Source: Candidula unifasciata (lineage: Eukaryota; Mollusca; Gastropoda; Stylommatophora; Geomitridae). From it: a stretch of 64,000 nucleotides of DNA. Made by a program: the position numbers and the translations under genes. The notes below the pieces were generated by a model. The model was not told the DNA's origin, made no database searches, and saw nothing but the letters and a program-made list of their open reading frames with translations. Shown here one piece after another: positions 36,101-58,600 of the stretch (the stretch's first letter is position 1; every line of letters starts with the position of its first letter). The DNA lies in the NCBI GenBank assembly GCA_905116865.2, contig CAJHNH020002020.1, forward strand, positions 62,001 to 126,000. The letters run 5' to 3'.

Positions 36101-39100
36101 ACCTGTGTTCTAGGCACTCTATTATCAGCAAGTAGATCTCTATTTTTTTCCCAAACCCTTTCATTTCTAAGCAACTTACTATGGGTAGGTATAGTTTAAA
36201 AGGATGTTTTCTTGGCTTTTTAACAGTGGTATAAGAGTCACATCATGAAAGATTTGAGTGCCTCACCATATAATATTTCCAAAGACTTTGGTGGCTGCAT
36301 TGCAGCCATCCTCTGTTGGGGAAAAGGCACAATAAAGAAAAGTGGAATAAAGTTGAAAGGATTGGTTTCACTGTTGGGTTTCTTCTGCGTTCATCCAAAG
36401 ATGTAATTGGGTTGCACCAGTTTACAGCATGGCTGTGATATTATGGGCCTTTCAGCCAACACATCCTGCTTCTGCAGTTGACCAGGTTAGCCTTCCTGGT
36501 CTGTTGGGTTTTATGCCATATGGTTTGGTATCTCTCCGCAGAGCTGCTGGTAACATCAAGAGTGTTGCAAAAAACATGAACTGTATAGCTCGAGTGACTG
36601 CTCCCATGCTGCCCATGCTGTGCCTGGTAAAAAGCAGGCTGATTGACTGCTTCCTCTGAGCAGCAAGCTACTTTATAAGACAGACATAACAAAGACTGTC
36701 TGGAATCATGTCAAAAATACAACAGAACAAGTTCAGTATTCATACCTAGAGAGACTGAGGATCTAGATGACATTGAACGCACACGGCAAATATGGGCCTA
36801 ATTACCTTTAGTCAGATTGCATCTAGTTCAGTGGTTCTCAACCTGTGGGTCGAACAACCCTTTCACTGGGGTCGCCAAAGACCAATGGAAAACACATATT
36901 CACTGAAGTTATGAAGTAGCAACGAAAATAATTGTATGTTTAGGGGTCGTCACAACATGAGGAACTGTATTAAAAGTCGCCGCATTAGGAAGGTTGAGAG
37001 CCACTGATCAAGTACAGTTGTATGCGAACTTTTGGTTGTATGTAGAATTTGTTATAAATGCGATAACACTATGAATAATGGTTTTATTTGACTTCTCACA
37101 TAGGAACACTTTGTTGAAGATGTGAAGGCTTTGCTGAAAGTACTATGGCTGTTTCTGCCATTACCTGTGTTCTGGGCACTGTATGATCAGCAAGTAAGTC
37201 TCTCTATTTTTTTCATTGTTTTGACAAGAAATCATGGGTCACTTTCTAGGCCTCTCTGGACTGGATTTGGCTCGCAGGTCTCAAGTAATTTAACCCTGTC
37301 ATAGTTGCTCTGTCTTCTGATGCAGCAGCCACTGAAGGCACCACTGCTGACCATTCATATAAACTTGTTGCATAGACATTGGTATATTTACACTTTGAAT
37401 TTTATACAGCTGTCTTGTAGTATCTTCTTCTTTGCCTTTATCAGTTGTAAACTTCGGCAGAAAGTTTTGGTTGTTTATCCACTTTTGGACTTTAGTCTTT
37501 TTCCAGAACCTGAGTTTCACAGATCTGGCTTATTTGTAGTCAGACTGTCAGTTTCTGGTCTCTCAGGCAGTTGCACTACGACTTCGAAGGACATATCTCT
37601 AATCAACTCTTATGACATGCTTGTTAGGGGGCAGTGGGTCTATTCCCCCCCCCCCACCCCCTTTTCCCCTAAACCACTATGGGGCCCTGGAACCTACACT
37701 AGGATATCACTTCTAGTATAATTCATTGTAAACATCATTGAGAACATCATCTTGTCAAACTGGCATGCGAGATCATCTTGCAATCTTTGCCAGCATGCAT
37801 CACTTCAAATGGTGCCAACTTTCTGTTCCAGACCACCATTGTGTTTAGTCAATGACCTTATAATGGGTTTACAGTGCTAGATAAATTGGCATTCACTTGA
37901 TAAACACAATTGATAAAGATCGGGTTTTTATGTTAACTTGAAGGGGAGCTCTAGACCCATTAGGAGGAAGGGAAATGGTTAGCCTCTCATGAATAGCAGT
38001 GCTCTTACTCTCATTACGACGTGTATTAAGATTCAGCATGTAAAACAGAACACTGAAATTATGAGTCACAAAAAACATGTATATTCTGGTTTTAATTCAC
38101 ATGCCATACAGTTAAGTGTAAAATATTTTAATACAACAATACATTAGTGTGTATGCAAGGAAAGCTTGGAAGAAATTTGCACTACACCGCTTTGGGGTGT
38201 CAGTGGAGATAAAGGTTCTGATTACTTGAAACAGTTGCATATATATAAATTGTAGTGTTCCAAAGAGGACATTTCACATACAGAAATTGCTCATATTTTA
38301 CCGGCACCATTAGGGGAAGCAAAGAATTTGAACAATGTCTAGTGGCAACTAAGGCTAAGGCATGCAGAACTGGACGTAGGCTGCACTCTCCTAGGATATA
38401 GGCTGCACTTTCTTGTGTGACATAGGGGGATTGGGGTTAGGGCCGATTCTGCATGTTTCAGGGCTGTTAAAAGTGGTAACATACTGTAATATAGAACAAA
38501 CGATATCGCCGGCCAGTGACAACATCTAGTAAAACGCTGCATGTTGTTGGCCGGCCACTAAGCTTGACACCCCAGCAACATAGCACAAGCCCTGCGACAC
38601 AGCAATTTATAAATGGAAAGGGAAGTCGGTCTCTTTCTGGGCCCGAAAACGTGAGATGTTCTGCAACTCAGTGATTGTGAAATGGTCTACTTTCATGGCT
38701 TCCTGAACTACTTGTATTTATTAACCGCTGTTGAAACTATTTTTATGCTACTGTCCAAGCTAGTTATTCAATTCTCCTGTCCAAGCTAGTCATTAAATCC
38801 TACTGTCCATTCTAGTCTTTAAATCCTACTGTCCAATCTAGTCATTAAATCCTACTGTCCAAGCTAGTCATAAAATCCTACTGTCCAGTCTAGTTATTCA
38901 ATTCTCCTGTCCAAGCTAGTCATTAAATCTTACTGTCCAATCTAGTCATTAAATCCTACTGTCCAAGCTAGTCATAAAATCCTACTGTCCAGTCTAGTTA
39001 TTCAATTCTCCTGTCCAAGCTAGTCATTAAATCCTACTGTCCAATCTAGTCATTAAATCCTACTGTCCAAGCTAGTCATAAAATCCTACTGTCCAGTCTA

Positions 39101-42100
39101 GTTATTCAATTCTCCTGTCCAAGCTAGTCATTAAATCCTACTGTCCAATCTAGTCATTAAATCCTACTGTCCAAGCTAGTCATAAAATCCTACTGTCCAG
39201 TCTAGTTATTCAATTCTCCTGTCCAAGCTAGTCATTAAATCCTACTGTCCAATCTAGTCATTAAATCCTACTGTCCAATCTAGTCATTAAATCCTACTGT
39301 CCAATCTAGTCATTAAATCTTACTGTCCGAGCTAGTCATTAAATCCTACTGTCCAAGCTAGTCATTAAATCCTACTGTCCAAGCTAGTTATTAAATCCCA
39401 CTGTCCAAGCTAGATGTAAAATTCTACTATTCCAGCAAGTAATAGAAATTCTACTGTCTAAGCAATTAATAGGAATTCGCCTGTCTAAGCAATTAATAGA
39501 AATTATATGGTCCAAGCTATCACTTTGGGAGGACCAGGCTTTTCTCTTCCATTTCCTGCACAAGCAGTTAATGTAGGCTTGGTGCAAGTTAACGTCATAG
39601 CTGCCTGGGCTGTTGATGTAGCTTGTGTGCAAGTTAATACCAAAACAGAGCTCCAGACTTCATGCCCTGCCTTGAAATTCTCTTTTTTTTATTCTATGCA
39701 AAGAGACTAAAGCATTCAGTAACTGCCTAAGCATACACTGAAACCTGTAGAAATCCATATTTTAAAAATACATGCCACAGGTAGAAAGAGTGACCAAAAA
39801 ACACATGAAAGAACAACAATTCTGTATCCTGGGATGCAAGGTGTAGAATGTTGTATTCTGTGATTATTGGGTTACTCCCTGTTATATTTAGAAACTACTT
39901 GAAACAAAGTTAATTCCCGATGGCAATCCAGTATGCTGTGGGAGTAATTTGACTCAATGAGCAGTAATAAATAAAACCGGTCGGACTCACTTTCTGTACT
40001 GTTATATTTGCACTCCCAGTTGAGAAAGATAGTGATAGACCACTCAGTGCTACAAAAACTGTAGGCTGGCTATTGTAGGGCCTTTGAAAAGGCACATATT
40101 GATTAATCATGCAATTAATAGGCCCTGTTTGGATGTTCTGGACCAAGGTTTGATTTCCGTGCATAGACCCTGTAAGATGATTCAGTGCCAGTGCATTCTG
40201 ATCGCTTTGAGACTGCAAATTTGCAGTCTGGTTTCTCAGTTCAGACACAGTTTGAATCAGCTCGGTGATGTGTTTGTTGCTCTGTGCAATTATTGAAGCT
40301 AGTTCAGATGTGGTTGGTTCTGAAGCTGTGATATAAACAACTTCTGATGTAGAAACTGGGTGAAGGTTGGCATCCAGTGCATTTATCTCGCAGGTGTATG
40401 GACCTGACTGATCACTAACTGGAAATGTCCAGGTAATTTCTAGATACCCTAGTTCACCGGCAATGGGCGATGAGTTTGAGTGGCCGTTTACTGTTATCTT
40501 GTCGAGGTCAGTGAAGGCTGTTGGGGGATCAAATGATGAGAGGCTGGCAACCTTTCGTTGAAGTCCAGTGTTTCTGTCTGTTCTGGATACAATTATAGAA
40601 ACAATATGGGACACCTCCACTTGAGTGAATATGGGGGACTTTGTTGTTGAATGTGTCGAGGAGGTTGTATATATTGTTGTTGCTGCTGTTGATACTTTTA
40701 TTGGTGTAGTTGCTGTAGTTGATGCAGGGCCTGCAGTTGCTACAGTTGCTGGGTGTGTTGTCCTTAATGTTGTTGCTGTTTGGGTAACCTGTCTTTTAAC
40801 AATCCTAACATTATGCTGTACAGCACATCGAAGTTGTAAGGTCTGAGTTAAAACTGGATAAATATTGCCTGGGGTGGCTTTGAAGTAAGCTCTTGATCCT
40901 TGTGTTGGTGGATAGAAGCAGTTCAGTAAAAAATTAGTGAAGTCATTAAGGAGTAGGGATATGCTGTATTGTTTATATACACATAAAAACAAATAAGATA
41001 TATTAAGAGAGCTGCTGGAGTAACAAGAAGTGATAAAATAAACTTGTTCAGTACCAGCTCATTGTTACTTCAACTCTTTCTATTTCTATTCAAAATGCAA
41101 TAAATGGAGTACTCTAACAACGCATATTTAGGAAGAAGCGTGGACAGAGCTGATGTCATCAACGCTGTATGGACTAGGTTGGGGGTTAATGGCGAATCTC
41201 TGATGCTAACACAACTGCGTGATCGAGGAGTTGAACTTGGAAAAGCTCATCTGTGTCATCTTCGATTTAAAAACAGGAGATAACTATAACCAACTCCTCA
41301 TGGGAACAATCAGTAGAGGTACCTTGGAGTGGCTGCTGCATCAGAGGACTGAGCATGCAGGGGGATGCCTGATGTGCAAAGACGTCGATTGTCATAAGAT
41401 AACATAAGATTTTGAGTTGCTAGGTACTCAGAGAGTTTAAATTAAAAGGCAGTTAGGCTAGGACTGAAACCAGTTTGACAGTTAATTTAAGATGAAATGT
41501 TATGGCTGCATTCTCATTAGATGGCTGAACCATTTCATTCTTTGTTTGTCAGTTTAATCAGATATGGCCTTATTCTAATTCCAATTTTTCTCTCTAATAC
41601 TGGTATTCGTAACCATGTCCTTTTGGTATTGTTAGACCTTTCGAAGACAGCACATTTTATGAAAATGATCAAATGTTAATAAAAATGACCAAATGTAATC
41701 AAAAAGATTACATCTGATAGAGGTTGACAGACTGCAGTGGCTGGGGCATATAGACAGGATGGTAGACAACAAGAGACAAAAATAGCGCACACAAAGGAGT
41801 TAAATGGGAGTAGACCATGAAGCAAATCAAAAAGACAGTGCAGAGATAATATACAGGCAGACATTTATCAGTTGGAAAGAAAAGACCAGTCACAAAGAAG
41901 AATAGTGAGTAATATCTGCAGCAGTAATAGAATGCCAGCCTTCTGTGATAAAGGTTGACTCAAAAACTTGCTAATGACTTACAAGATTTGTGGAAAAAGG
42001 GCAAGGGAGAGGCATAAATACCTGGATGGCTTACCCATGCGGATGGGAGGAGATACAAATACTCACCTCATCTGTGATTCTGGTGATTGTGTGAGATGAC

Positions 42101-43800
42101 GAAACATGACAGCCTACACTTATTGGATGACAGTGATGACAATGTAATGTTATAAATTGTACAAAAGGATGCTGATGATGGATTTAACTTGCAGTGGATG
42201 TCAGGGAGGTTAAAGATATGTTAGTTGAACCTATTCTCTTTTATCTTGAAATGTGATTGATCGGACTAGAGCTCAGAGCTGAGCTACCAGACTCTTCATG
42301 TTGATGACACACTTTTTAGCCAAACATAATTTCAAGACACAGTAAATCAGTCTACAAGCAAACCTGAGTTTTGTTTATGTTTGTGTTTATCTTTATTTAA
42401 CGGATCAACATCATGGCACACAGGTGTAACCCATAAGTGCTCCGTTTTTCTTCTAACTCTAGCCTGAGTCTGAAGAATCTCAGTGCAGTTCACAAACTGT
42501 GTTGCACCTGCGAGGATCCTGAAATACTTTGGTCGATTTTTTCTTAAACTCAAAATTGTGCCTAGGTAGTGCTGTTAGGCTACTTTTTTTCGATTTCCAA
42601 CTGCTGAGGGATTTTTACGTGCACAATATTACACACAGTCGTCTGGTCTTGCTACCCAGAGACCAGGGGAAGTTACTAGAAATCCACTTGAAAAAATCCC
42701 AACCTTCACCGGGGCTTGAACCCGGGACCTCTAGCTTCAAGGCGGACACCATGCCTCGAGACCACGCAGCCCCAAACTAACCCCTGACAAGAGATAAAGA
42801 CACATACAGAAATTATGTTTGTGTGGCACACCTTCACACTGCAGCTGACACACTGTGTTGTGACATACAGTTTGGAAAGCTCTGGCTGAGAGGCACTGGA
42901 GGTATGGTTTCTGATACAACTCTCGCGAATAGCCTGGATAGATACAGTAACCAGTGAATCCCTGGAAAAAGCTAATGAATGAACCATTTGCAACTCAGTG
43001 TTCTTCATTCAGGTGATGAGAGAACATTGTGACAACTGGAAATGTCAGTGGTAGAAAAGGCAAAGGCAGAGTATAAAATGATGCAGGATGGTCTAAGACA
43101 GTGGCATGCTGGAACTTTACGAATAAAATTGTTCCAGAATCTGATTCAGTAAAGCAAACTAAGTTACATACTGGGACAACTAGCCATTTTTGCAACATTT
43201 GACAGTCCAAATCAGGAAAAACATCTTATACAAAGCATTTTCATCCCCACCCTATTCTGCCAGTGCCAGACATGGTCACTCACAGCAAACCAGAAAAGAC
43301 AACTAGTAACCAGTGAAAAGTCTGAGAAATTCTGCAGTAGTGACCAAATGAGATAAAATGAGGAGTGAAGACAATGAGAGAAAAAAGAGAAAAAGTTTTT
43401 ATAGAGCCAGTACTGAATAACGTACTCAGACAGCAGTTAAAATGAGTTACCCACTTGGAATACATTGATGCCATTCCGTACAGAGCATATACCATAAGAG
43501 GTGAAGGGCATGGAGCACAAGGTAGAAATAGAACAAGATGAAAAGTTGGCGTTTCCCCTGTGGGTTCCAGGGCTCAATATGGGAGGGAAAGGAATAGACC
43601 CACTTGACCCCTAACAAGTATTTTGTAGAAGATGACTAATTAAGGCTGTTTCTTAGGGCCTGAGATGCAAGGAACCAACAATCTGCATATAAATAAGTAG
43701 GATCTGTAAAATAGGTGTGCATGCAACACTCATGTTCTGGATCAAGGCCAAAGTTCAGAATAACCAGAACTTTCTGCTGGAGTTTACAGACGGTGAGCAC

Positions 43801-43831
<31 letters not shown>

Positions 43832-46800
43832 AAGAAAAGATAGTATCAGAGAAAGTCTACAACATTACAGTGTCTATCATCGAGATGCCAAAAGAGCAAG
43901 AAGCAAAAATGTCATTTCCCTTGACACCTAAAGCAGAAAAAGAGGAAGTGAAGATTAATAATTAAACTTCCAGAGACACAAACACCCACACCATCTGGCA
44001 AGGCAAATGATTGTGAGGAACTGCTGGATTTGTAACTACCTGATAAACCTGATGTTTGTCTTGTATTCTAGGCACAGCATTATGGTCCAATGTGTTTATA
44101 ATTATTGTTGTGTTTGTTAATCGACCTATGCTTGGTAAATATAAATTTATGTAGCCTTTGGAGCCATTTCGATGGTTGGAGACGAATTCTGCCTGTATTC
44201 CACAGTGTGAATTTTAATCTGTACGATAGACATTTCCAATGAAGACACATTTTTTGTGTGGGTGTCTGTTAAGTCTTATAGCTTAGCGAGGTGCATACAT
44301 CATTTGGAGGTGACAGGTTTGGTTTCCAGCACAGTAACTGAAGCTTTTGATTTTTATATTGTCTAGTGTGTCCTTCTATCTTTCTTCTTCTTTCTATGAG
44401 TGGCGATGTATAAATTGTCTGTTCGTTTACTAAATATAACCTACCTGATGAACTATGGCAGAGTACTAGAAAGATGGCACAAGTGAAAACTCTTGTCATC
44501 ATCATCATTATGTTGCTTTTCATCTATAGCCCACAGTATAGATTTTGATGTCACAGTCACAGGTTGTAAAAACATGCGAACTTTTCTTGGCCTAATCAGC
44601 CTCTATATATATACTACTGGCCTTTCCACATAAGAGAAAATGCCATACTTGTTGGTTCTCAAGGAGTCCTGTTGATTCTGTCCTTTTTTTCTCAGCATAC
44701 TTGTTCAGTTATTCTTGTAGTGTACTTATACTCAACTGAGAAGCTTCTGCTGATGCATCTTGAAGATAAAGTTGAGAGGATTTTGGAGCACCATGTCTTG
44801 AAAAACTTATCTTTGATATTGGTTGGCTGGGTGATATCAAGGGTCCTTCCATTCTAAAGTGTTATCAGTAAGATTCGTCTGTAATGTTGTTTTTTATAAC
44901 CACCGTCATGATAGTACTAAGAAAACAAAAAGCCCGTCTTAGGCCATCTGTGCATTGGACAGATAGTGCGAGACCTGTACTTTAAAAGCAGTTGTCACTT
45001 GAGAAATAATGAGGTCAACATCACGGCCGCCGTCTGTACTTCTTGGTTCCCTGGGAACCAAGGTCAGTTGTAACATTCAACTCAGTGGGGATTAAGACCC
45101 AAGACCTTTGGACCAGCAGACAAGTGCTTAGTCAAGGTTTCCTCATAAACGTCACCATAATCATCTTTTACGACAATTACTACCATTAGTTTTCTTATCT
45201 GTGTTCATCCTTAAAATGGCAGTTGGTTTACGGCTAGGCTGGGATATCTGCACTTTTGGGCCCAAAGCATCCAGTTTGATCAAACTCTTCATTACTTGTC
45301 TTTTATGTCATGTTTTGTTGGGGGGGGGGGGGGGGAATGCAGTGGATCTGTTATTGTTTCCCCCAAAATAGGACTCTGGGACTCATATAACATACACTTA
45401 CTTGTCTTTAGCAAAATCCATGACATTTGGAAATTCAAGAGCAGGCTGAATTGGCCGCCTACCCAGGAAACATTTCTAAGCTTCCCACACCCAAAAAAAA
45501 ATGGAGTGCTGCCTTAAGATTACTCTTGTCTGGTCTGTGGAGAGAGACTGAAGCTCTTAAGGAGCTATTATTGTGCAATGACAGTGATTCTTTAAACACC
45601 AGATTGACTAAATCAGTGGAGCATATGTAATATTTATTGTCATCATTGTTGTAATTCACATCTTCATTATCATCTTACAGTAGTCATCTTATAGTAATCA
45701 GCTTATTGTAGTAATGATCTTATATGAACACCCTATGATTATTATCTTATAATAGTAACCATCCTTTTGTAATCGTATGAGCATCTTACAGTAATCTTAT
45801 CATAAATGTCTTTATCATAATAATCATCTCATCATAATCATCATCTTATAATAGTAATAATATTATTATAATCTTATTATAATTATAGTTATCTATCATC
45901 TTCACCAGCTAATAATGAGGGTACTGCTGGGGTGACCGTTTATTAACCCTCATTTAATTCTTCCGGTCAAAATGGACGCTAGGTACGGCCACCCTTTTTT
46001 TTTTAAAGCTGTGGCAAATATTTATTTTTTTTGCCAGACGGTGGCCGTTGCATTTTTGCTCCATTTGTAGACTGGAAGGATGTAGTTTCGTCGCCCAGCT
46101 TCTGAGTTGAGTGCATGGTGTGACACTGTGAGCTGCGTTTGTTTTTCGTTGGCACAGGAGGGGAGCATATGTGGGGTGACCCGTTTGCTATGAAGCTGAA
46201 ACTAGGATTACCAGATTACCAGATTACCAGATTATCTATCATCTTATCATAATCTGTCGACTGATAGTCTTAACAATCATCTTATGAGAAATAAATGTTT
46301 ATTTCAAAGAATTTAAATACAGTGGAAGTGGCTGCTGCAGAAGGCAGATTTCTTTACTTATACTGTGACCAAATATAAAAAGTACAAGAACTCATAACAC
46401 GATGGTTGAGATTCACATGACAGCTAGTTAACACAGCACACATGGATTGGGATTAAGCAAACCACAGAGCATGTCTTACAAGATATTTTGCCAGCCGTAG
46501 GAAATTTGGCAGACAGGAGCAACCCTGAAGGATAGAGCAGTAATAAAGACCTTAAGTGTGCTATCCTGTTTGTGATCCATGCAGGAGTGGATGCATAGCA
46601 ACAGTTGGTTGCTGAAGAAGAATAGTGGATGGACAGAGGAAAGTATTTCCTATATATAGAATGCATGAATTTGGAGTTTTTTTGTTAAAATTTTTTTTTC
46701 TAAATTCTCTTGTTTTGTTTCAATATTTTATTGATACTATGTAGTTATGGATAAAACAAATCAAAGTATTAATAAGAGAAAGAAAGTTACTAGCTGTGAT

Positions 46801-49800
46801 TACTAATGACTTCCCATCATTGGCTGGTTTGTCAGCCTTTAGCACCTTAAGTTTCCTTTGAAGTTGCTGTGCATCTCCTGGTTTGCCAGCCATTCCTCTA
46901 TTTAGTCTCCATTTAATCTGTCTGTTAAAATTCAAGATCTACATTGACAGCTTCTTAAATTGCTTTATTTCATTAACAGATTGTTTCACTATGATCAGAA
47001 ATGAGATCCTATTATGGATTGTAAAAGTTAGGTAAGCTCACTGGGTGGAAAGAGCATACATAGAGGAAAAAGTTGAAAAAGCAAGGAATTCTTATTTTGT
47101 TTGCTTTCTGATTTACACTGACAGACAAGTTAAGCAAGAAAAAAAAAACATGCCATAGTAACTATCATACAATAGTGGGTGTTTGAAAATGACAGCGGGA
47201 ATTACACCTAACTATACTTTTTTAATGTTTTAGGAGAATTCTTAAAAATTTTTTGCCAGACAAGATCAAAAATGAACAACTGATGAGGAAAGTCCATCAC
47301 TGGTAATTATTATGGAAGCAGGAGATAGCTAGGACATATTTGCAGTATGCCTGCTGACACTGTGGCAAGGGACAGCGCTTTGGTGGATGACAGGTGTAAA
47401 AAAAAACCAGGATAATGGATGACCTAAGGAAACCTGGAAGATGTCAAAAAGTAAAATGAAAGAATGTAAAATGACAAGAATTACCATAAGTAGAAAAAAA
47501 AACAACAACTGCAGACTGGCAGCAGGGGAGATCACCTATGAATGCCTTATGTGTCAACAATGACATGAAGAGTGTGCAGATATAGTTATCAACTGAAGAG
47601 TCCTACTACTGGGTGCAGAAACAATGAACACAACAATGACCACCCTAAGCATGTAACTTATAATACCCCCGTTTCGAGGAGCAGTCAAAAAGTAATGTCA
47701 TGAATAATTTTTAATTGCATTCAAAAGGCAAGAAAGCAGATAAAGTTCACATTGAAATGTAGCCCAGAGTCTGAACTTCAAAAGTTTGTTTCTCAATATA
47801 GTCTCAATATTTGTTACAGTTTTTATTCCATCTTTTCACAAGGAAATGTATGCCCACATGGTAAAAATATGTGTCTTTTTTTTTTTTTTAACCACTGGCG
47901 TACAGTGGGATCTCAGGGTTCTCAAAATATGTCCATGAAGATCTTATTTCAATCGTCCAAACAAATGGAAGTCTGAAAGTGCAAAATCGGGACTGCAATA
48001 ATGTCCAGCCGAATTCTTCTATCATATCAATCGTGCATTAAGCACTGTGTGGCAGGGAATTATCTTACAACAGTAGTTCTCTGATCGTTTAATAGGTAAA
48101 GGTGCCAAAGACGACTTCTAAGCTTCATCAAAGTTTAAAAATAACTGTAAGCATTCACCATGTTTCCCTGTTCCAAGAAATCAGATGGTGAACTTTTGAA
48201 CTTCTTTCTTGTCATTTATACAGTGTGATGCCATTCCATTGACGACCTCTTCGCTTCTAGTTTTAAAAAAAATGAACCTGAGTCTTGTCACTTGTTACAG
48301 TATTCGATAACAACTCCTCTCCTTCAGTTTGGTAATGGTGCAAGAGATTGATGGCTTGATTCTTCAAACACCGGTGGATGCAAATTGGGGTCTTGCTTTC
48401 AGCTTTGAGTAATTCTATGACATTACATTGTTTACACCGAACAACCTTAAAAGCCATTTTAAAACTGTTACAGTGGTGCCACCTGTTACTAAAACAGGTC
48501 TGTAGTGCTATAGTGTTTGAGGAACCCTGCTAAATTTACAAACTGCACACCTTCACAGTATTATAATGATGAATCTCTTATGCTAATCCAATCACATGGC
48601 TTAGAAGTAAAACCAGGTGAAGCATATCAGTGTGCCATTGAGGTCAAGATAGGAGCTACTATAACAGTCTTTAATATTGGAATCCAGGAGAGGTTCCATA
48701 GGATGGCTGCTGCAATCAGAGAACTGATAGGGGAATGCCAAATTTGCAGTGACATCAATTGTAATACAATAGCAAAACATCCTCTGTGTAGTGGAAGCAG
48801 ATTATACATTGGCACTGTCTAGAAAGCTCGTTGCCATGAAACAAAAATAAGGAAACCTGAAAAAGGAAAAAAAGGGCAGTGACATTAGCGTCATCACATC
48901 TGATCACCAACAGCAATCCAGCTAACATTGAACGAAACTGAAGCTGACTGACAACTGATGAGGAAGCCTGTGGCATTGACGTGCTTGACTGGAGCTGTAA
49001 CTGTCAGGTAGGTGTTGTAGTAGTCCCTCACTTTACTGAGACCTGACAGAGCAGTGACAACTTGAGGTGTGCTGTTGTATGGCACGGGGAAACTGATGAA
49101 AGTATCTGGTTTCGTTTCTTCACACAAGTGGAGCCCGGTTTGGATGTGGGGAATTTTCTGATGATCTATTGTTGATGTCAATCTGGCTATTTCTTGCTTT
49201 AGCTCAGCAATGTTCTTGTTGTTGGTCTCCACATACTGGACAATGTCCGTCACAGTTGGTTCAGATGCTGTGATATGTTGCGATGCCGTGAACGACACAG
49301 GGAATTTAGCATCATTAAGCGCAGACACCTGGCATACATATGTTCCTGAATCCTGGCTGTTGGGGCTAATCCTGATGACTTCCAAGAAGCCTTGTTCTCC
49401 TTTAGCCGACAGTTCCGTGTTGCCAGCGACTATAATCTCCCCTGTATGCGAGGTCTCGACAGAAGCAGGATCAAACGAGGTGACACTAGCTATAGTTTTG
49501 TTGACTCCGGTGACGTTATTTGTTTTATATACGACGATTGATACCACATGATGCACATTGGGTTGTTTTGTCTTTGCAGAAGGTGGGTGTTCTGTTATTG
49601 TCTCTGCATCCAGTAACTCCCCTGTTTGTAGGGAACAGCGTAGATGTAAAGTCGAAGTTAGGACTGGGCTGATGTTTCTGGGTCTTGCAGTAAAAATTAT
49701 GTGGGAGGCTGTGGATGAAATTAACATGTTGATTGAAAAAAACAACTGAAATCTCTTTTTTTGATTGATTTTTTTCTGATTGATTAAATTTTCTGATTTC

Positions 49801-52646
49801 TGTTTTTGATTGATTTCCTTTCTCTTTCATTACTCTTTATGGTTTTCTCTTTCTGATTTCTTTACGATTGTATCATTTTCTCTGACTGATTGATTTCTCT
49901 TTGCTTGATTTGCTCTTTCTTATTGATTGCTCTTTCTTATTGATTGCTCTTTCTCATTCTGATTCTATTTTATTGACTTTTCTGATTGATTGTTCTTTAT
50001 GATTGAATAATTGCTTCTTCTAATCATTTTCTCTCTGATTGATCATTTTCTATTTCAGATTGATTTCTTTCTGATTTTGTTTTTCTAATTATCTCTCTGT
50101 TTTTGGCGATACCTTGCATGCGATCAGCTATTGTTCACATGCCGCAGACAGTGTACGTTGTGTTATGTTGGGTCTGAGTCAAACAGACACATCTGGCTGG
50201 GTGTTTATAAACTTGCTGTACATTATGATTATTACCTCAGTGGCATAGTGTTTTCAATGCCATGGACCATGTTGTGTGAAGGGGGGACATCAGGAAGGGA
50301 ATGAGAATGAAGGAAGAAATGATTGCAGAAAGGATGAGAGCTGAGCATCAGAGAAGAAACACACTAAACACAAATGTTGACAACAACGGTTCTGAAATCC
50401 CCTGCTATAATTGTGGAAGACTTTTCTTAACCAGGGCGGGTCTTGCTAGTCACACTCACCATCATCATGGACTGTGAGTCCCTTACTTACTACTTAGTCG
50501 CTCCTCTTCTACCTTGGGGTGTAGAGGTTTGCCAGAGAGATCACCAGACGTCTCTATCAGCAGTTTTATTTCTGGCTTTGTTCCATTCCAGTCCTCTGTC
50601 AGTTAGGGACTGTCGGATGTTGTCTTCCCAGCGCACCCTGGGTCGTCCTGGAGGTCTGGTTCCCTGGTTCTTAGCCTCCCATGCCTGCCATGGTGGCCAA
50701 TTTTCTCCCATTCTGCATACATGTCCAAACCATTGTAACTGTGACTGATCCACTCGGGTTTGTAAGGGCTGGGTATCAAGATCTTGACGTATTGTCTGAT
50801 TGCGGACTTTGTCCCTTCTTGTCACTTGGACCACCTTTCTCAGATATCTCATTTTGACTGTGAGTCCCAAGCCTCCTAATAGTGCAATATAATCCTGTCA
50901 TCTGGAAAAACAGGACATTGCCAATCATAGTGTTTAGTGTGCGCACCTGCTGAGGTAGAAGTCTGGGTCCACATTAAAAAAAAAAAAAAACTGATGAAGG
51001 CATTTTGTGAGGTTCTCACCCTTCCCCACGAGATTTAGCAGCCCCCCCTTCCCCACTGTGCCACCCTCTCCCTTTCAAACCATGTATAGAGCTTGTCTAA
51101 CTTATTTTAGAGGAATTTATTGAAAAACAACCCCCCTATTTTGAATTTCATTTCCCTGTGTGGGTTCCTGGGCCCTATTATAGGAACAAAACAAGAATAG
51201 ACCCACTGCCTACCCAAAAGCATGTCGTAAGAGTCGACTACGTGGGAGCTTCCTTCAAAGTCAGAGTGCATCTGCCTGAGAGGCAAGAAACCAGCTGTCT
51301 GCGTACAGATGAGTCAGATCTCTAAAAAAGGATGCATATGTAACACTCAGCTTCTGGAACAGGACTGCAGTCCAAAAGTGGATGAACAACCAGAACTTTC
51401 GACCAGAGTTTTACAGCTAGTGAACACGAAGAAGAAGAAGAAGAAGAACTTTATTGACCTTAAAAAAAACTTTTTAATAGCTTACACAGAACATCACTGA
51501 GTGGAATTTTGGAATATTGTGATATACCAATGACAATAGTAAATATTGCCAAAACAACTCATGAAGGTTCAGAGTGTGCAGTGCAAACATATAATGCAAA
51601 CATATAATGGTATAATTAAGTGATTGGTTTGCAGTTGAAACTGAGATGTACTTTATTTTCCCTGTTATTTGCCATAACCATTGACTGGGTGATTAAAAAA
51701 AAAAAAAAAGTTGTGGTAGAAATACTGGCATTGACAGAGAGGCAAACACACAGTTGTTAGATCTCAGTTTAGCTGATGATATTGTTGTGCTAAGTAACTA
51801 ACATGTGAAGAAAAACAGATGATTTAGCTGTCATAGGATCAGAATGTCAATACATTTCAGTGATGAGCAGAGCCTGCAAAAAAGGAATATACATGCTGTA
51901 CAAAGTCAAAGAAATTTACAGACTGTAGACATTATTCTGCTACTTTTACTCCCACTTAGCTCAGGCTGCCTCCAGCACAGAGAGATAGATGGCGAACTTA
52001 TTGAAATGATGGATTCGCACCTGCAATCCAGTATATCGTCCAGACATTTCTGAGGCATTATTGTATCACTAACCACGGCAGCTGTGTAGTGAAATTTTGT
52101 TCTCAGTTTTAAAAAAATCCCCACTAGTGTGTTAAATTCTTTGCTTCATGAGATGAACATCAAGAAACCTTCCACTGTCTCACAGCCTTTAATGTATCGA
52201 GAGGTAAATATCCAGTTGATCTGTATATGTGATGTCTGAAACGGAATCTACACTTACTGAAAAATACTTTCTCTTTTATTTCTTCAAGGAAAGTACGAAG
52301 AACCTGTTGTCCCATTAATTCAATACATTCCTAACAAATATTGGCAGATAAATATGACAGATTCCCTTTTCCAGGACCATACGTTTTGAGATGCTCTCGA
52401 AGAAAGAGGCTAATTTACTCAGCACCTCTAGCATACCTAAATAGCTGTTATTTATGTCTTGACCTGGTCAGTATTCTGATTTACTCCACGAAATGGCAAA
52501 CCTCTGGGGGCAAGAAAGCTAATTACAGAAATCACACATGTCAACGCTTTTTGAGAATATTCCTGCTCTGGGCGATGTCACGCACACACAGGTGTGTGTG
52601 TGTGTGTGCATGCCCACGAGTACATGCATGGGCTGGGGTGTGTGTT

Positions 52647-52677
<31 letters not shown>

Positions 52678-55600
52678 AAGAATGGGAAATATAATTTCGG
52701 TTTGATATTAAATAGATTTAATTTAAACGTCAGATATATGTTTACTTATGGCAAGTCACCTTACATGCACAGATGAGCATGATGCCTCTAGGCTCATGGG
52801 GCCCCTGGGCAAGTGCCTCGCGAGCCCATGCATTAAGATGGCCCTGCAAATGAGACGCCTATTACCTTGGATTTTCTTCAAATTTTTAAGGCCAGTCCCA
52901 ATGTTGGTTTGTGACAAGTGATTCAACAGCAGCGTAAACATTGACTAAATTCCAGGTTGTTACCCCATTATCTATCTGTATACCCTGAACCTCTAGTGTA
53001 CTATGATTCCACTGGTCCAGATCAAGAACCACGTGCTTCACCCTATTCTTCACCAGCAGACATTGCCCATGTCTTCCCTTTCTGGTAGGATTTATATATC
53101 TAATGTATCCAGGACACTCATGTCTATCAGTGTTTAATTCCTGCATCATGATGATATCAGAGTCATAAATCAGTCTCTCCAGTACAGATCCTCTCTGCCT
53201 GGCACTACGACAATTTCAGTAGCCCACTCTAATATGCTTTAATCCTAGACGCTTTTACCTGACTCTCTGGGCTCTGGCTGTCCTATATCTATGCCTTCTT
53301 CTCTCTCCATTTCCTCGTCTTCTCCTCTTCCCACTCTCTTTGTTGGCATCTGAAGATGGTGTCAAGCACAGAGCACGCAGTCCTTAGCTCAGGTGATGAT
53401 TCTTTTTATTATTCTTTCTCCTGTTCCCACCCTCTACCTGTAAAAATACTAGATATAAAAGTGTAACAGTAGTACCTGAAATGTAGCAGAATAGAAAGAA
53501 ATGTTTTTACCTGAAATGACACCAGCCAGCAGAGCAGTATAAAGATAACACAAATTCATGTCTGCAGTTTTGTCTGGAAGCCTCTATAAGCTTTGCTTAG
53601 CTGAAAGTGAAAGTATGTGATGCACTGACGACAGCTTGCCACTAGTGTTTGTAATCTAATTAGGGAACATGACAGTTTAGTGATCAATGGATGTGTTAAT
53701 GACTTTCATTCAACATAGTACAGCTAGCAACATTTAGGAAGTTTTGTTACTAACAGGCAGGTGTTTGATTTCCCTTTCTCATGCTCATCTGTAAAAAAAA
53801 AAATAAAGGACTTTTTATTTAAATTGTCAGTGGTGCATCATTTTGAGCTGGCTGAACAGTTGAAAATGCTGGCCTCTCATGTACACCTTGGTTTAAATCC
53901 TCTGTAAGGTTATGAATTTTTTTTTCTATCAGGGGCAAAAGTAAAATCCTAACCTGCGCAGTCTGTGGCAACTGCACTAGCTCTTCAGCCCTAAATCCTC
54001 AGATTATACCCCCCACCCCCCAAACACACACACACACACACCCCGTGCTTGCACTGCAAAAGTGGTAAATACATGCAGTAATGGTGACCTTTATTGGCGC
54101 ACTGGGCATATGATGCTAGACTCATATTTGTATAAACCAATCAGCACTCTGTGGGTGATATGGTCAACATCAAGCCAGCCACCTTTGCTTCTCTGGATAT
54201 TACCAGTTATCTATTTTCGGCTGTGTCGATCTGGAACGGAAGTCAAGTTTGAAAAAAAAAGTCTGTCTTTATGCGGGTTCAAACCCAAGACCTTTTTGCA
54301 GCAGGCAAGAGTCTGTCCATCTTGGTACCACGGCTCTACTAGCAACTTCTACTTACCAAGAAATCCCTAGTACATGTCTGAGGATAGTTTGACCTGGGAG
54401 CATCTGTTAGAGAATTCAAACACATAACCACAGTCTCACCACAAAGAGCTATCACATGTTACAGTTTTAGGAGTTGTCTTAGTTTATGTTTGTTTTCTCC
54501 TCAATAACAGGGTTCACGATGGACGCTACAAGCTGTAAGAATGAATGGAGATGTGGTAAATACTGTTGTTATTGTTGTTGTTGACATTATAGATTCATAG
54601 AGAAAACATATCAACAAGGCAGCAACCAAAGCCATGAGGAAGACAGCATTACTAAGAAAACTAAGTGGAACCACACGGGGAGCCAGTGGGAAAATACTCA
54701 ATAAAGTATACAAGCAGAGCATACAACCACACTTGGAATATAGGTCAACTGCATGGTGTTCAGCATCTAGTACCACATTAAAAGAGTTGGACAAAGTGCA
54801 AAATCAGGGGCTCAGAGTCATCACAGGAGGGATGAAATCAACCCCCCATATTAGAAATGGAGAAAGCTGGGAAAACACAGGCACTGAGAGAACGCAGAGA
54901 TACAACGTTGCGAATACAAGCTGAAAAGTTCCTCAGTATGCCAGATCACCCCATGATAAATATATTTCAGAACCTAGCCTTGGGACGGTTAAAAAAGAAG
55001 CAGCTTTATACACCAAGCAAAAAGAATATGTAGATAAACTACTGACCTTCCAGAAATTGGTTGTTCACTTAAAAGTATTCCAGAACAAACCCCATTGAGA
55101 GAAAAATGCAAACTAACAGTACAAATCCAGACAAATGTGAAAGGAATATTTGACGAGAGAACAAGATTGTGTTCAACCCAGAATGGCCACCCTCAGTTAT
55201 ATTGATGAAGAGTACCCACAAAAACAATGGGTCCCAGTCTATACAGATGGGTCGGCAGAAAGTGCAGTTAGAAATGGTGGCGCTGGAGTGTACATAGAAT
55301 TCCCAGATGGTACTAGGGATAAGTCCAGCGTACCAACCGGGAAGTACTGCCATAACTATGATGCAGAAACTCAGGCTATCAAGATAGCAACAGAGAAACT
55401 GCTAAATACCAATCTTGGCTCACAGTATGTGATAATGCTGACGGATGCAAAATCCGTACTTGAAGCACTCCAGTCTAGGAAACTACCAGAATTGTAAGCA
55501 CTGCTGACACAACTCAGCCTTTAGCGAAGAGTTGTAATGCAATGTAAACCGTCCCATTGTGGAGTGCCTGGAAATGAGAAAGCTGATCAACTGGCAGGGG

Positions 55601-58600
55601 AAGGTTCGACAAAAGTGCAGCCCGATGTACCCGTCACATACCACCAAAAGAAAAGAATCATTAAATAGATCAGGAAACCACCAGCCCCAGCACAAGACGA
55701 TTACTTCATTATCGACAGATCAGAACAAGTCATTATCCTCCGCCTCAGAACAGGGCACAACCGATTACATAACCACATGTACACAAAATTCAAGATAGGC
55801 GTATCAGCCATGTGCACCTGTGGAAAGATGCCCCAGACAGCAGAGCATGTACTCCAGGACTGCACCGAATTTGACACATTAAGGCAAACCTTTTGGCCAG
55901 AAAGTGCAACAGTGGAATGTAAACTCTATGGACCACTGACTGAATTAACAACAACAGTGAAATTTATACACGAGACAAAATTGCTGATATAGACAACTTC
56001 TTTCAGGCGAATGAAAGAAGAAGAAGAAGAATAGATTCATACTATTACATGGATCAGTATTCTAGTGGTCGAGGTAACTGTCAAGAGGTTAATGAAATTG
56101 TTTCGTAATCCAGTCTTTCTTGGATCATAGTGCCATTTCTGTGATCTGCTGTGTAGAAAAATACCACTTTTGTTGGTTTTAAGAGATTAGAACCTAACCG
56201 TATAATATCCCAAAAAAAAGCAGTGGGTGCACTGCAGATGACCTCCATTCTGAAAATAGCACATTTTAAAAAAAAATCCATATTTTTGAGGTTTTTTGTG
56301 TGTGAATTAGCCGCCAGCTTGTCCGTGATAAAATATCTCTTTTTTTGCCAGCTGGCATATGAAAAATGTTTGAAAAACATTGATGTAAAGAACATGTTTT
56401 ACGCAGTCGATAATACATTGTTTGCTCAAATTATGAGAGAGAAAATACTGGAAGTTCATCAATACATCAGAAAAACTGGATGGTACAAAAGGCAGATGGA
56501 AGGTAGGCCTAGATTAGAATCATGGTATAGGGAAATCTATAAGAAATTATTGGCAGTAGACAAGAAAGAAGCATGGACAAATGTGGCTTGGACTAGGAAA
56601 GTGTAGTGTTTTCATTTGTGTCTGTAGTTTTCATTTTACTCCATTATCTTATTGTGAAGTAGCTGTTTTGGTCCCAAAACCATTTTTTGAGCAGTTCACA
56701 TAATTTTTAGCCAGCTAGCACACTCACTTGTCCAATCACTGAATTCACCACCAGGGACCTCTAGGCCGGATTAAACCTGACCAGTTACAAGTGATAAATC
56801 CTCTGTTGATCCTACTGCTGATACCTGTCTTTGAAAAGTTGGTCTATCCATGCCTCAGCAAACTTCACATTCCTAACAGGTGACTTACATTCTAGTTATT
56901 TTGTTCTCAGTTTTTCTCAGCATGTGTCCTATCCAACACCAGTGTATTTTCTTAATCTATTTGTCCACTGGAACTTGTTTAGTTCTGTCCCAAAGCTCAA
57001 CATTAGTGATTCTATCAAATCATTGAATTTCCTCTATTCTGATCAAGCACCAGTTAATGAATGTTTGTAGTTTATTAGTAATTGCCTTAGATTTTTGAAA
57101 TAATCTCAGTTTTAACATATGCCAGAGAAAGTAGGAGAACCATTAAAGATAGAGCAAAATAGTTTCAGAAAGAAATGCCTGAGTGAACTGAATTTTGGAT
57201 GTGATAATTCAAGAAAGGCAAAGAAATCTGAAATGTCTGGAGAACCATTGGCATCAAATGATAAAACAAAGTAGGTGGTATTTTGGGCACATCCTGGGGT
57301 TAAGTGGTCAGAGATCCACAAAACAGACACTAAAATGGGATAAATATGGATTGACCAAGTGATGACACTCAAGAAAAATCCCATGGCAAATGTTGAGGCC
57401 AGATGCACTGGTTTGGATCAAAAGGATTGTACAGAATAAAATAGACTGGAAGAATTGACGGAACCCTGTGTGACATAAATCTCACAACAGATAGTTGGGA
57501 GATGATCACTTGCCAAACTCATCAAGAAGACATGTCAGCTGTTTGTGACTGAACCCGATTGTGTTATTATTTGAGAAACATCAGCCTCATTACACTTAGT
57601 GCAGCCATTTTAGTTTTATCATAGGCCTCAGGGCAGGACATAGCAAACTTAACAACCACATGCACAGGCGTTGTCTAAGTGGTTCACCATTGTGCTCATG
57701 TGGGCTGTATGTGCAGACTTCAGAACATGTCCTGTAAGAATGTCCCTTGTACAGCCCATTAGGAAGGAAATACTGGCCCATTTAGTCAACATTGCACAGA
57801 GAGTTGTATGGAACTAAAAGGGAACTCCTAAAAACAGTTAAGTTTATCGCAAGAACCTGTCTGTCAGTGTAAACTGAAAAGCGAACACAAGCAGAAGAAG
57901 AAGAAGATGGCATAATAATTTTACCATGTTGTGTTTGTGACCCTTCTTATATCTTTCATTTTATATTTTTGTTACTCTTGTTACAAAAACAACACACCCA
58001 AATAAAGGTGCATGCAGCCAAGCTGATATTAAGTACTGTATTTCCCCAAGTATACTTACTTTTCCCAAAAATATAGGGTCTAGAAACATTGTGCATCTTA
58101 TTCAATGGTATTAGAGATTTTATTAAATGATTGATTAGAAATATTCTGTAAAGGGCCTCATTTGAGAATGCTGGTTCTCAAAAAAAAAAAAAAAAATTAT
58201 TATGAAATGAAAAGTTCTTATTTACCCTTTGCGCTCAATGTTTTGCGTCTTCGCACCCAATGTTTAGAAAATCCTGTGTCCACTAAGATTCGACCGCTTG
58301 TTGTCAGCATTAACAAACCCTTCAGAGTTGTCATGAGAGATGATGGAACTAATGGACAGAGTCTTCTGGGGATAATTTGACAGCAGCATGTGGTGTGAAG
58401 AAACCAACTGTAGGAGAAGTTTGTCAAACTGTCACTACTGTCTGTTTTTACCACCTTTTTAGGGCAGTGTAGACAGGGAAGTTGTAAGCCTGAGCATTGA
58501 GGGCTGCATGGCTAGTGCTGTTGCCACAGACTGTGCAGGTTAGGATGTTTAATTTGGTCCCCGACAAAAAAACATTATCACCATTTTTAGGGTTGAACAC

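Follow-up and report, generated by a model that had tools for sequence, protein, structure and literature searches.

Two HREP-type genes joining an Ig domain to an H-type lectin head within a peptide transporter intron of the land snail Candidula unifasciata

Introduction

Gastropod proteins that combine Ig-like domains with an H-type lectin domain have been described before under the name HREPs (PMC8878817, citing Gorbushin 2019; described here after the accessible part of that source), and QREP is a further, related VIgL-type name in the same account. FREPs, CREPs and GREPs are classified as VIgLs in PMC9334734, which also attributes five H-type lectins to Aplysia; the name HREP was not found in the VIgL listing as far as that text was available. 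Mussel H-type lectins have been reported as well, with no Ig mentioned in the accessible portion of the paper (PMC5549309).

Here we describe two genes, A and B, located in a stretch of 64,000 nucleotides of the Candidula unifasciata genome (contig CAJHNH020002020.1, C2019:62001-126000 in the searched assembly), hereafter referred to as the window. The initial annotation placed two Ig and H-type lectin genes at 39910..53559 and considered them an H-type-lectin branch of snail Ig-lectin proteins. The two genes were confirmed, and the branch is real but not new, HREPs having been named already (PMC8878817, as far as accessible). A and B are thus additional HREPs, a protein type already named in gastropods. 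They share with HREPs the gastropod Ig-like domain(s) and the H-type lectin, a likeness drawn from the accessible description only. The nest in a transporter intron, the insert in the BC loop and the loss of contacts for N-acetylgalactosamine (GalNAc) do not appear in the accessible part of that description. No mention of the nest, of the insert at the position of complementarity-determining region 1 (CDR1), or of the lost GalNAc site was found in the searched literature, a set that leaves most subscription papers outside and includes some sources in part.

Gene models and domain organization

Both genes lie on the minus strand of the window and are composed of two exons. Gene A (355 amino acids) starts with a signal-peptide exon at 44445..44523, which ends in phase 1 at the donor GTAGGT and has a start region like that of the Bradybaena similaris protein P0004. 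The second exon, at 39910..40898, comprises the entire mature protein and the stop codon. In gene B (287 amino acids), the signal-peptide exon at 53511..53559 also ends in phase 1, with the donor GTAAAA and an N-terminus like that of B. similaris P0008, while the mature protein and the stop are located in exon 2, at 48894..49708. Introns of both genes have GT...AG boundaries. Frames and splice sites agree with the phase-1 signal exon initially postulated ahead of each gene. P0004 and P0008 have a like signal stretch at the start followed by matching mature sequence and, because they join the two, they support the splice models of A and B.

Open frames, canonical splice sites, four Cys and starts are all kept between A and B and their Bradybaena counterparts, at an identity of 52-66%. 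One AATAAA/ATTAAA signal per gene was observed 217 (A) and 219 (B) bases past the stop, within the 700 bases inspected. The window is without N, and Rfam gave nothing at gathering score within it. Both signal exons are hydrophobic, and by eye neither protein has a hydrophobic C-terminus.

The order of an Ig domain, a helix of coiled-coil type and an H-type lectin was borne out by AlphaFold2 for the first two and by PF09458 for the lectin. In gene A, the V-type Ig domain including its insert spans 40315..40896, the helix 40156..40311 and the lectin domain 39913..40143. The corresponding segments of gene B are 49257..49706, 49161..49253 and 48897..49151. A single helix is predicted to link Ig and lectin, 52 residues long in A and 31 in B. 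AlphaFold2 models combined with structure comparison disclosed a V-set Ig fold in both proteins. When the whole models were compared, one domain filled the lists: the matches were to Ig domains or antibodies, and lectins were absent. Support for the lectin fold therefore comes from sequence. With PF09458, gene B exceeds the family cut-off (28.7 bits as protein, 30.5 bits in the genome scan), and A is 0.1 bit under it as a whole protein (23.9 bits) and above it in the genome scan (27.1 bits).

Pfam detected no Ig domain in A and reached an expect value (E) of 0.23 in B, and the Ig assignment was made via structure prediction instead. Domain-based annotation can accordingly miss the Ig part of HREPs, which falls below Pfam thresholds.

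A stretch of differing length connects strand B of the Ig, which bears the first Cys, with strand C. This BC stretch, at the CDR1 position, is 70 residues long in A (40615..40824; 44% Thr/Ser/Pro) and 27 residues long in B (49554..49634), and it ranges from 9 to 70 residues among 14 measured proteins. In both models it lies largely below 50 in the AlphaFold2 confidence measure (predicted local distance difference test, pLDDT).

Relationship with FREPs

Fibrinogen domains were searched for in A and B with no match up to E 10; the C-terminal head is an H_lectin domain, so neither protein is a FREP proper. Membership in the snail Ig-lectin family, as claimed in the initial annotation, was nevertheless corroborated by the Ig domain and two FREPs of the same genome. 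A profile built of 14 HREP Ig sequences was searched against 1624 frames (from 30 fibrinogen loci, other loci and the window) together with 1000 shuffles of loci L047 and L048. Whole-protein E was 1.2e-22 for L048 and 3.3e-16 for L047, in each case over three stretches, the best of which had E 1.3e-9 and 8.5e-7, respectively. Only 3 of 1000 shuffled controls appeared at E <= 10 (best E 0.5), and the best other non-HREP frame had E 0.05. In addition, hhalign of a 12-sequence family profile with L047 resulted in E 3.7e-10 and a probability of 96.7 over the second Ig. Because the profile matches with their shuffled control and hhalign agree, we conclude from these comparisons that HREP and FREP Ig domains are homologous. 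Poorly documented HREPs are in this way tied by sequence to FREPs, both within one genome.

Four of the 30 fibrinogen loci were read. In L047 (510 amino acids) and L048 (527 amino acids), a single long open frame encodes a fibrinogen head and two stretches of Ig type, which makes them FREPs. A and B resemble them in the homologous Ig type and in an open frame that runs uninterrupted from the Ig through the linker to the head. They differ in the H-type lectin head instead of fibrinogen, in one Ig instead of two, and, in A and the copies on contig C4232, in the long BC-loop insert.

The genome contains 81 Fibrinogen_C matches, and L047 and L048 were the two matched among the 30 loci searched with the Ig profile; none of the other fibrinogen loci was better than E 1. 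L071, the only one looked at among the remaining 51 matches, has no Ig of HREP type as judged by eye. Large clusters of fibrinogen exons on contigs C2490 and C224 account for 45 of the 81 matches.

Lectin head and its sugar site

H_lectin matches were obtained in A, B, two copies on C4232, two copies on contig C4774 and two homologues. The family profile matched Helix aspersa agglutinin (HAA) and Helix pomatia agglutinin (HPA) at E 2.1e-14 to 2.5e-13. Used singly as plain sequence queries, A and B matched nothing in PDB under E 0.1. The lectin domain is homologous to that of Helix agglutinins (PDB 2ccv, 2ce6, 2cgy, 4q56), and the framing cysteines C9 and C80 are kept in A and B. In comparison with Helix agglutinin, A and B gain Ig and coiled coil, and are without the 20s loop, Arg63, Trp83-His84 and C42. 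In the column of C42, the third Cys of the HPA-like domain and a candidate for its interchain bond, both have Asn. The partner domain of discoidins is the discoidin (F5/8C) domain and not Ig. Discoidin I/II of Dictyostelium also has a C-terminal H-type lectin, which the family profile detected (2vm9, E 7e-4).

GalNAc contacts of HPA, which we take to be G24, D26, R63, W83 and H84, were compared among the lectin domains. On this assumed list, none of the five is kept in A, in B, or in the two compared C4232 copies. In the six C4774 genes, W83 is kept in all and R63 in five, and the other three contacts in none. The HPA-like exon L036 of Candidula, on contig C5917, retains four of five, with D26 replaced by N. 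One genome thus holds a plain Helix-type agglutinin domain as well as two kinds of HREPs, of which one retains the agglutinin site in part and the other has lost it. GalNAc binding, suggested at first by analogy with known H-type lectins, is not safe to infer for A or B. Sugar binding in the manner of Helix agglutinin is unlikely because these contact residues are missing, and, judging by the residues, GalNAc is an unlikely default guess for the ligand.

Related genes in the genome and in other snails

The searched genome comprises 1.34 Gb in 7176 contigs; the published C. unifasciata genome is given as 1.29 Gb in 8586 scaffolds in the part of the source available (PMC8496239). The genome-wide H_lectin search at E <= 0.01, in which counts are lower bounds for large families, revealed 14 places: two in the window, three on C4232, six on C4774 and three on C5917. 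Eleven of them (C2019, C4232, C4774) are of the HREP type, the lectin being accompanied by the Ig, complete or as its C-terminal half. The reading frame is broken in two of these, at C4232:0.7-1.7 kb and at C4774:1289 kb. The former, C4232:695-1727, is positioned at the contig start and is a near-identical copy of the gene at 6.9-8.0 kb; decay or an assembly fault are both possible. The segment C5917:259-292 kb (L036, L072) includes three H-type lectin domains, one with an internal stop. L036 is of the Helix-agglutinin type and may represent the classical agglutinin of this species. A twelfth Ig locus, C4774:1173064-1173402 (L033), has an HREP-type Ig half followed by a helical-looking frame of 452 amino acids, with no lectin match.

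One exon encodes Ig, stalk and head in A, in B and in both intact copies on C4232. In the C4774 genes, comparison of proteins P0005-P0007 with the frames suggests that a new exon starts at the C-terminal half of the Ig. P0006, a public protein of C. unifasciata, is 100% identical to a C4774 frame.

Public protein searches gave two matches with A and seven with the alignment of A and B. The sequence homologues (P0003, P0004 and P0008-P0012) are from Bradybaena, Lymnaea stagnalis and others. In the phylogenetic tree, A is grouped with P0004 and P0003 (support 98/98) and B with P0008 (99/100); P0009 and P0010 are flagged as long branches of unsure placement. The two Bradybaena proteins, P0004 and P0008, are encoded on separate contigs of 60.8 and 74.6 Mb. 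Separate orthologues on separate contigs indicate that the split between A and B predates the split between Candidula and Bradybaena, and that the pair is not adjacent in the latter. A recent tandem duplication was ruled out as the origin of A and B, each grouping with its own Bradybaena protein.

Source records of P0009 and P0011 have 1063 and 1389 bases and contain the signal part along with the mature part, as would be expected if they were spliced transcripts from relatives. P0010 and P0012 of L. stagnalis are divergent HREP-type proteins, both from 195,678-base contigs and probably from one cluster. When bacterial and archaeal genomes were scanned with B, 65 stretches fitted the pattern and none of them encodes a relative.

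Selection and sequence variability

The initial annotation referred to variable proteins, and this attribute found no support. Ratios of replacement (pN) to silent (pS) differences per site were 0.19-0.71 in exon 3 of five C4774 genes, in all 10 pairs and three regions. This set includes five of the six lectin genes on the contig, with the frame-broken gene at 1289 kb left out. In one C4232 pair, pN/pS was 0.55 for the whole exon, 0.18 for the A-B strands, 0.76 for the BC loop, 0.34 for the rest of the Ig and 0.42 for the lectin, while the coiled coil had two replacements and no silent change, hence no ratio. Diversifying selection was therefore not found in the 10 C4774 pairs and the single C4232 pair, pN/pS being below 1 in every C4774 region and pair and in the C4232 pair overall.

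Differences in the C4232 pair concentrate in the BC loop and near sugar-loop positions. Silent sites also diverge strongly in the loop, with pS 0.32, while the remainder of the Ig has 0.04. Selection therefore accounts for this divergence no better than gene conversion outside the loop or a poor alignment within it. In the lectin, 21 of 77 codons were matched by eye to HPA sugar loops, and these contain seven of the nine replaced residues (Fisher p 0.001). The sugar-loop table was filled by hand after the replacements had been seen, in a single pair, and the enrichment at these codons is taken as a hint.

Proposed function and alternative explanations

The anatomy and ancestry of A and B follow from the gene models, the predicted fold, Ig homology with FREPs and head homology with Helix agglutinin. 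The explanation we regard as probable is that A and B are HREPs, Ig and H-type-lectin members of the VIgL/FREP proteins, which would be secreted, oligomerized through their stalks, and bound by their heads to non-self glycans; secretion, oligomerization, glycan binding and a role in defence are proposed on the basis of this anatomy and ancestry. The proposed mechanism is modelled on the mode of action of FREPs and of agglutinins. Each chain would be secreted with a V-type Ig, a coiled-coil stalk and a C-terminal H-type lectin head. The stalk probably gathers several chains, the initial annotation having proposed multimers held by the coiled coil and an H-lectin trimer, and the clustered heads would most likely bind glycans of microbes, parasites or other non-self sources with avidity. 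The Ig ends would face outward to partners such as other VIgLs and haemocyte or plasma factors.

Several points weigh against this explanation. The Ig of A is not called by Pfam alone. The link with FREPs rests on two of 30 fibrinogen loci, the other 28 having no Ig match within ~1.5 kb. The public protein matches included no record of A or B from Candidula, a weak objection because the search with the alignment of A and B also missed annotated C4774 proteins; A and B may be absent from the published annotation. Finally, snail H-type lectins also serve eggs and mucus, and defence is not the sole reading.

The last point introduces a minor but appreciable possibility, that the same type of protein has a reproductive or mucous job. 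It would act as a component of albumen-gland egg fluid or as a mucus cross-linker, in which the Thr/Ser-rich loop bears O-glycans and the heads tie mucus glycans. H-type lectins have been placed in snail egg defence (PMC4795696, PMC8878817), and in Cornu aspersum they were found only in protective mucus (PMC10475054), as stated in the accessible parts of these sources. On the other side, the Ig is homologous to that of FREPs, known in the partly accessible literature as defence factors of Biomphalaria, and the egg role could be filled by the three C5917 H-lectin places, of which the one read (L036) is HPA-like.

A more specific proposal, which we consider doubtful, is that the recognition site has moved in the one-exon HREP branch. 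An H-type head without the GalNAc pocket would mainly hold the oligomer together or bind a different ligand. The V-type Ig, through its mucin-like, length-variable insert at the CDR1 position, would offer either a binding loop that varies or an O-glycan bait built into the protein. If true, a snail lectin would here employ a V domain much as an antibody does. The presence in one genome of heads with and without the agglutinin site raises the question of which ligand H-type heads have after loss of the GalNAc pocket, and whether a V-domain loop takes over.

It is quite improbable that A and B are relicts or artefacts, i.e. decayed copies or an assembly misjoin with frames open by chance. The missing Candidula record, the two frame-broken relatives and the location of the Bradybaena orthologues on two different contigs would agree with such an origin, but it is opposed by the features kept with respect to Bradybaena and by a window without N. 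Least probable is a convergent fusion of an unrelated Ig with an H-type lectin into mere VIgL lookalikes, which would fit the lack of a Pfam Ig family common to A, B and the two FREPs and is largely refuted by the FREP Ig profile matches (whole-protein E 1e-22 and 3e-16, checked against shuffled sequences) and by hhalign (E 3.7e-10).

Host gene and surroundings

Turning from A and B as HREPs to their location, both are positioned antisense inside a single 17.3-kb intron of a peptide transporter gene (37194-54510), and the nesting proposed initially is borne out by flanking PTR2 exons. The upstream flank of the intron is a PTR2/SLC15 peptide transporter exon at 37104..37193 on the plus strand, corresponding to profile positions 195-229. 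On the downstream flank, a 45-nt host exon, GSRWTLQAVRMNGDV, extends over 54511..54555 (plus strand) and was recognized by motif, phase and AG/GT boundaries, without a profile match of its own; its motif is presumably a peptide-transporter motif. The next host exon is at 56755..56879 (plus strand; PTR2 profile positions 240-274). Splitting of the pair by an extra transporter exon was ruled out, the 45-nt exon being located outside the pair.

Fragments of mobile elements were observed in the same surroundings. A retroelement RNase H piece (PF00075, E 1.4e-8) is located downstream of the pair, at 55231-55608 on the plus strand, in the next transporter intron. In the intron of gene B, frames at 50541-50897 and 52886-53215 on the minus strand resemble, by eye, tail and endonuclease pieces of a non-LTR retrotransposon.

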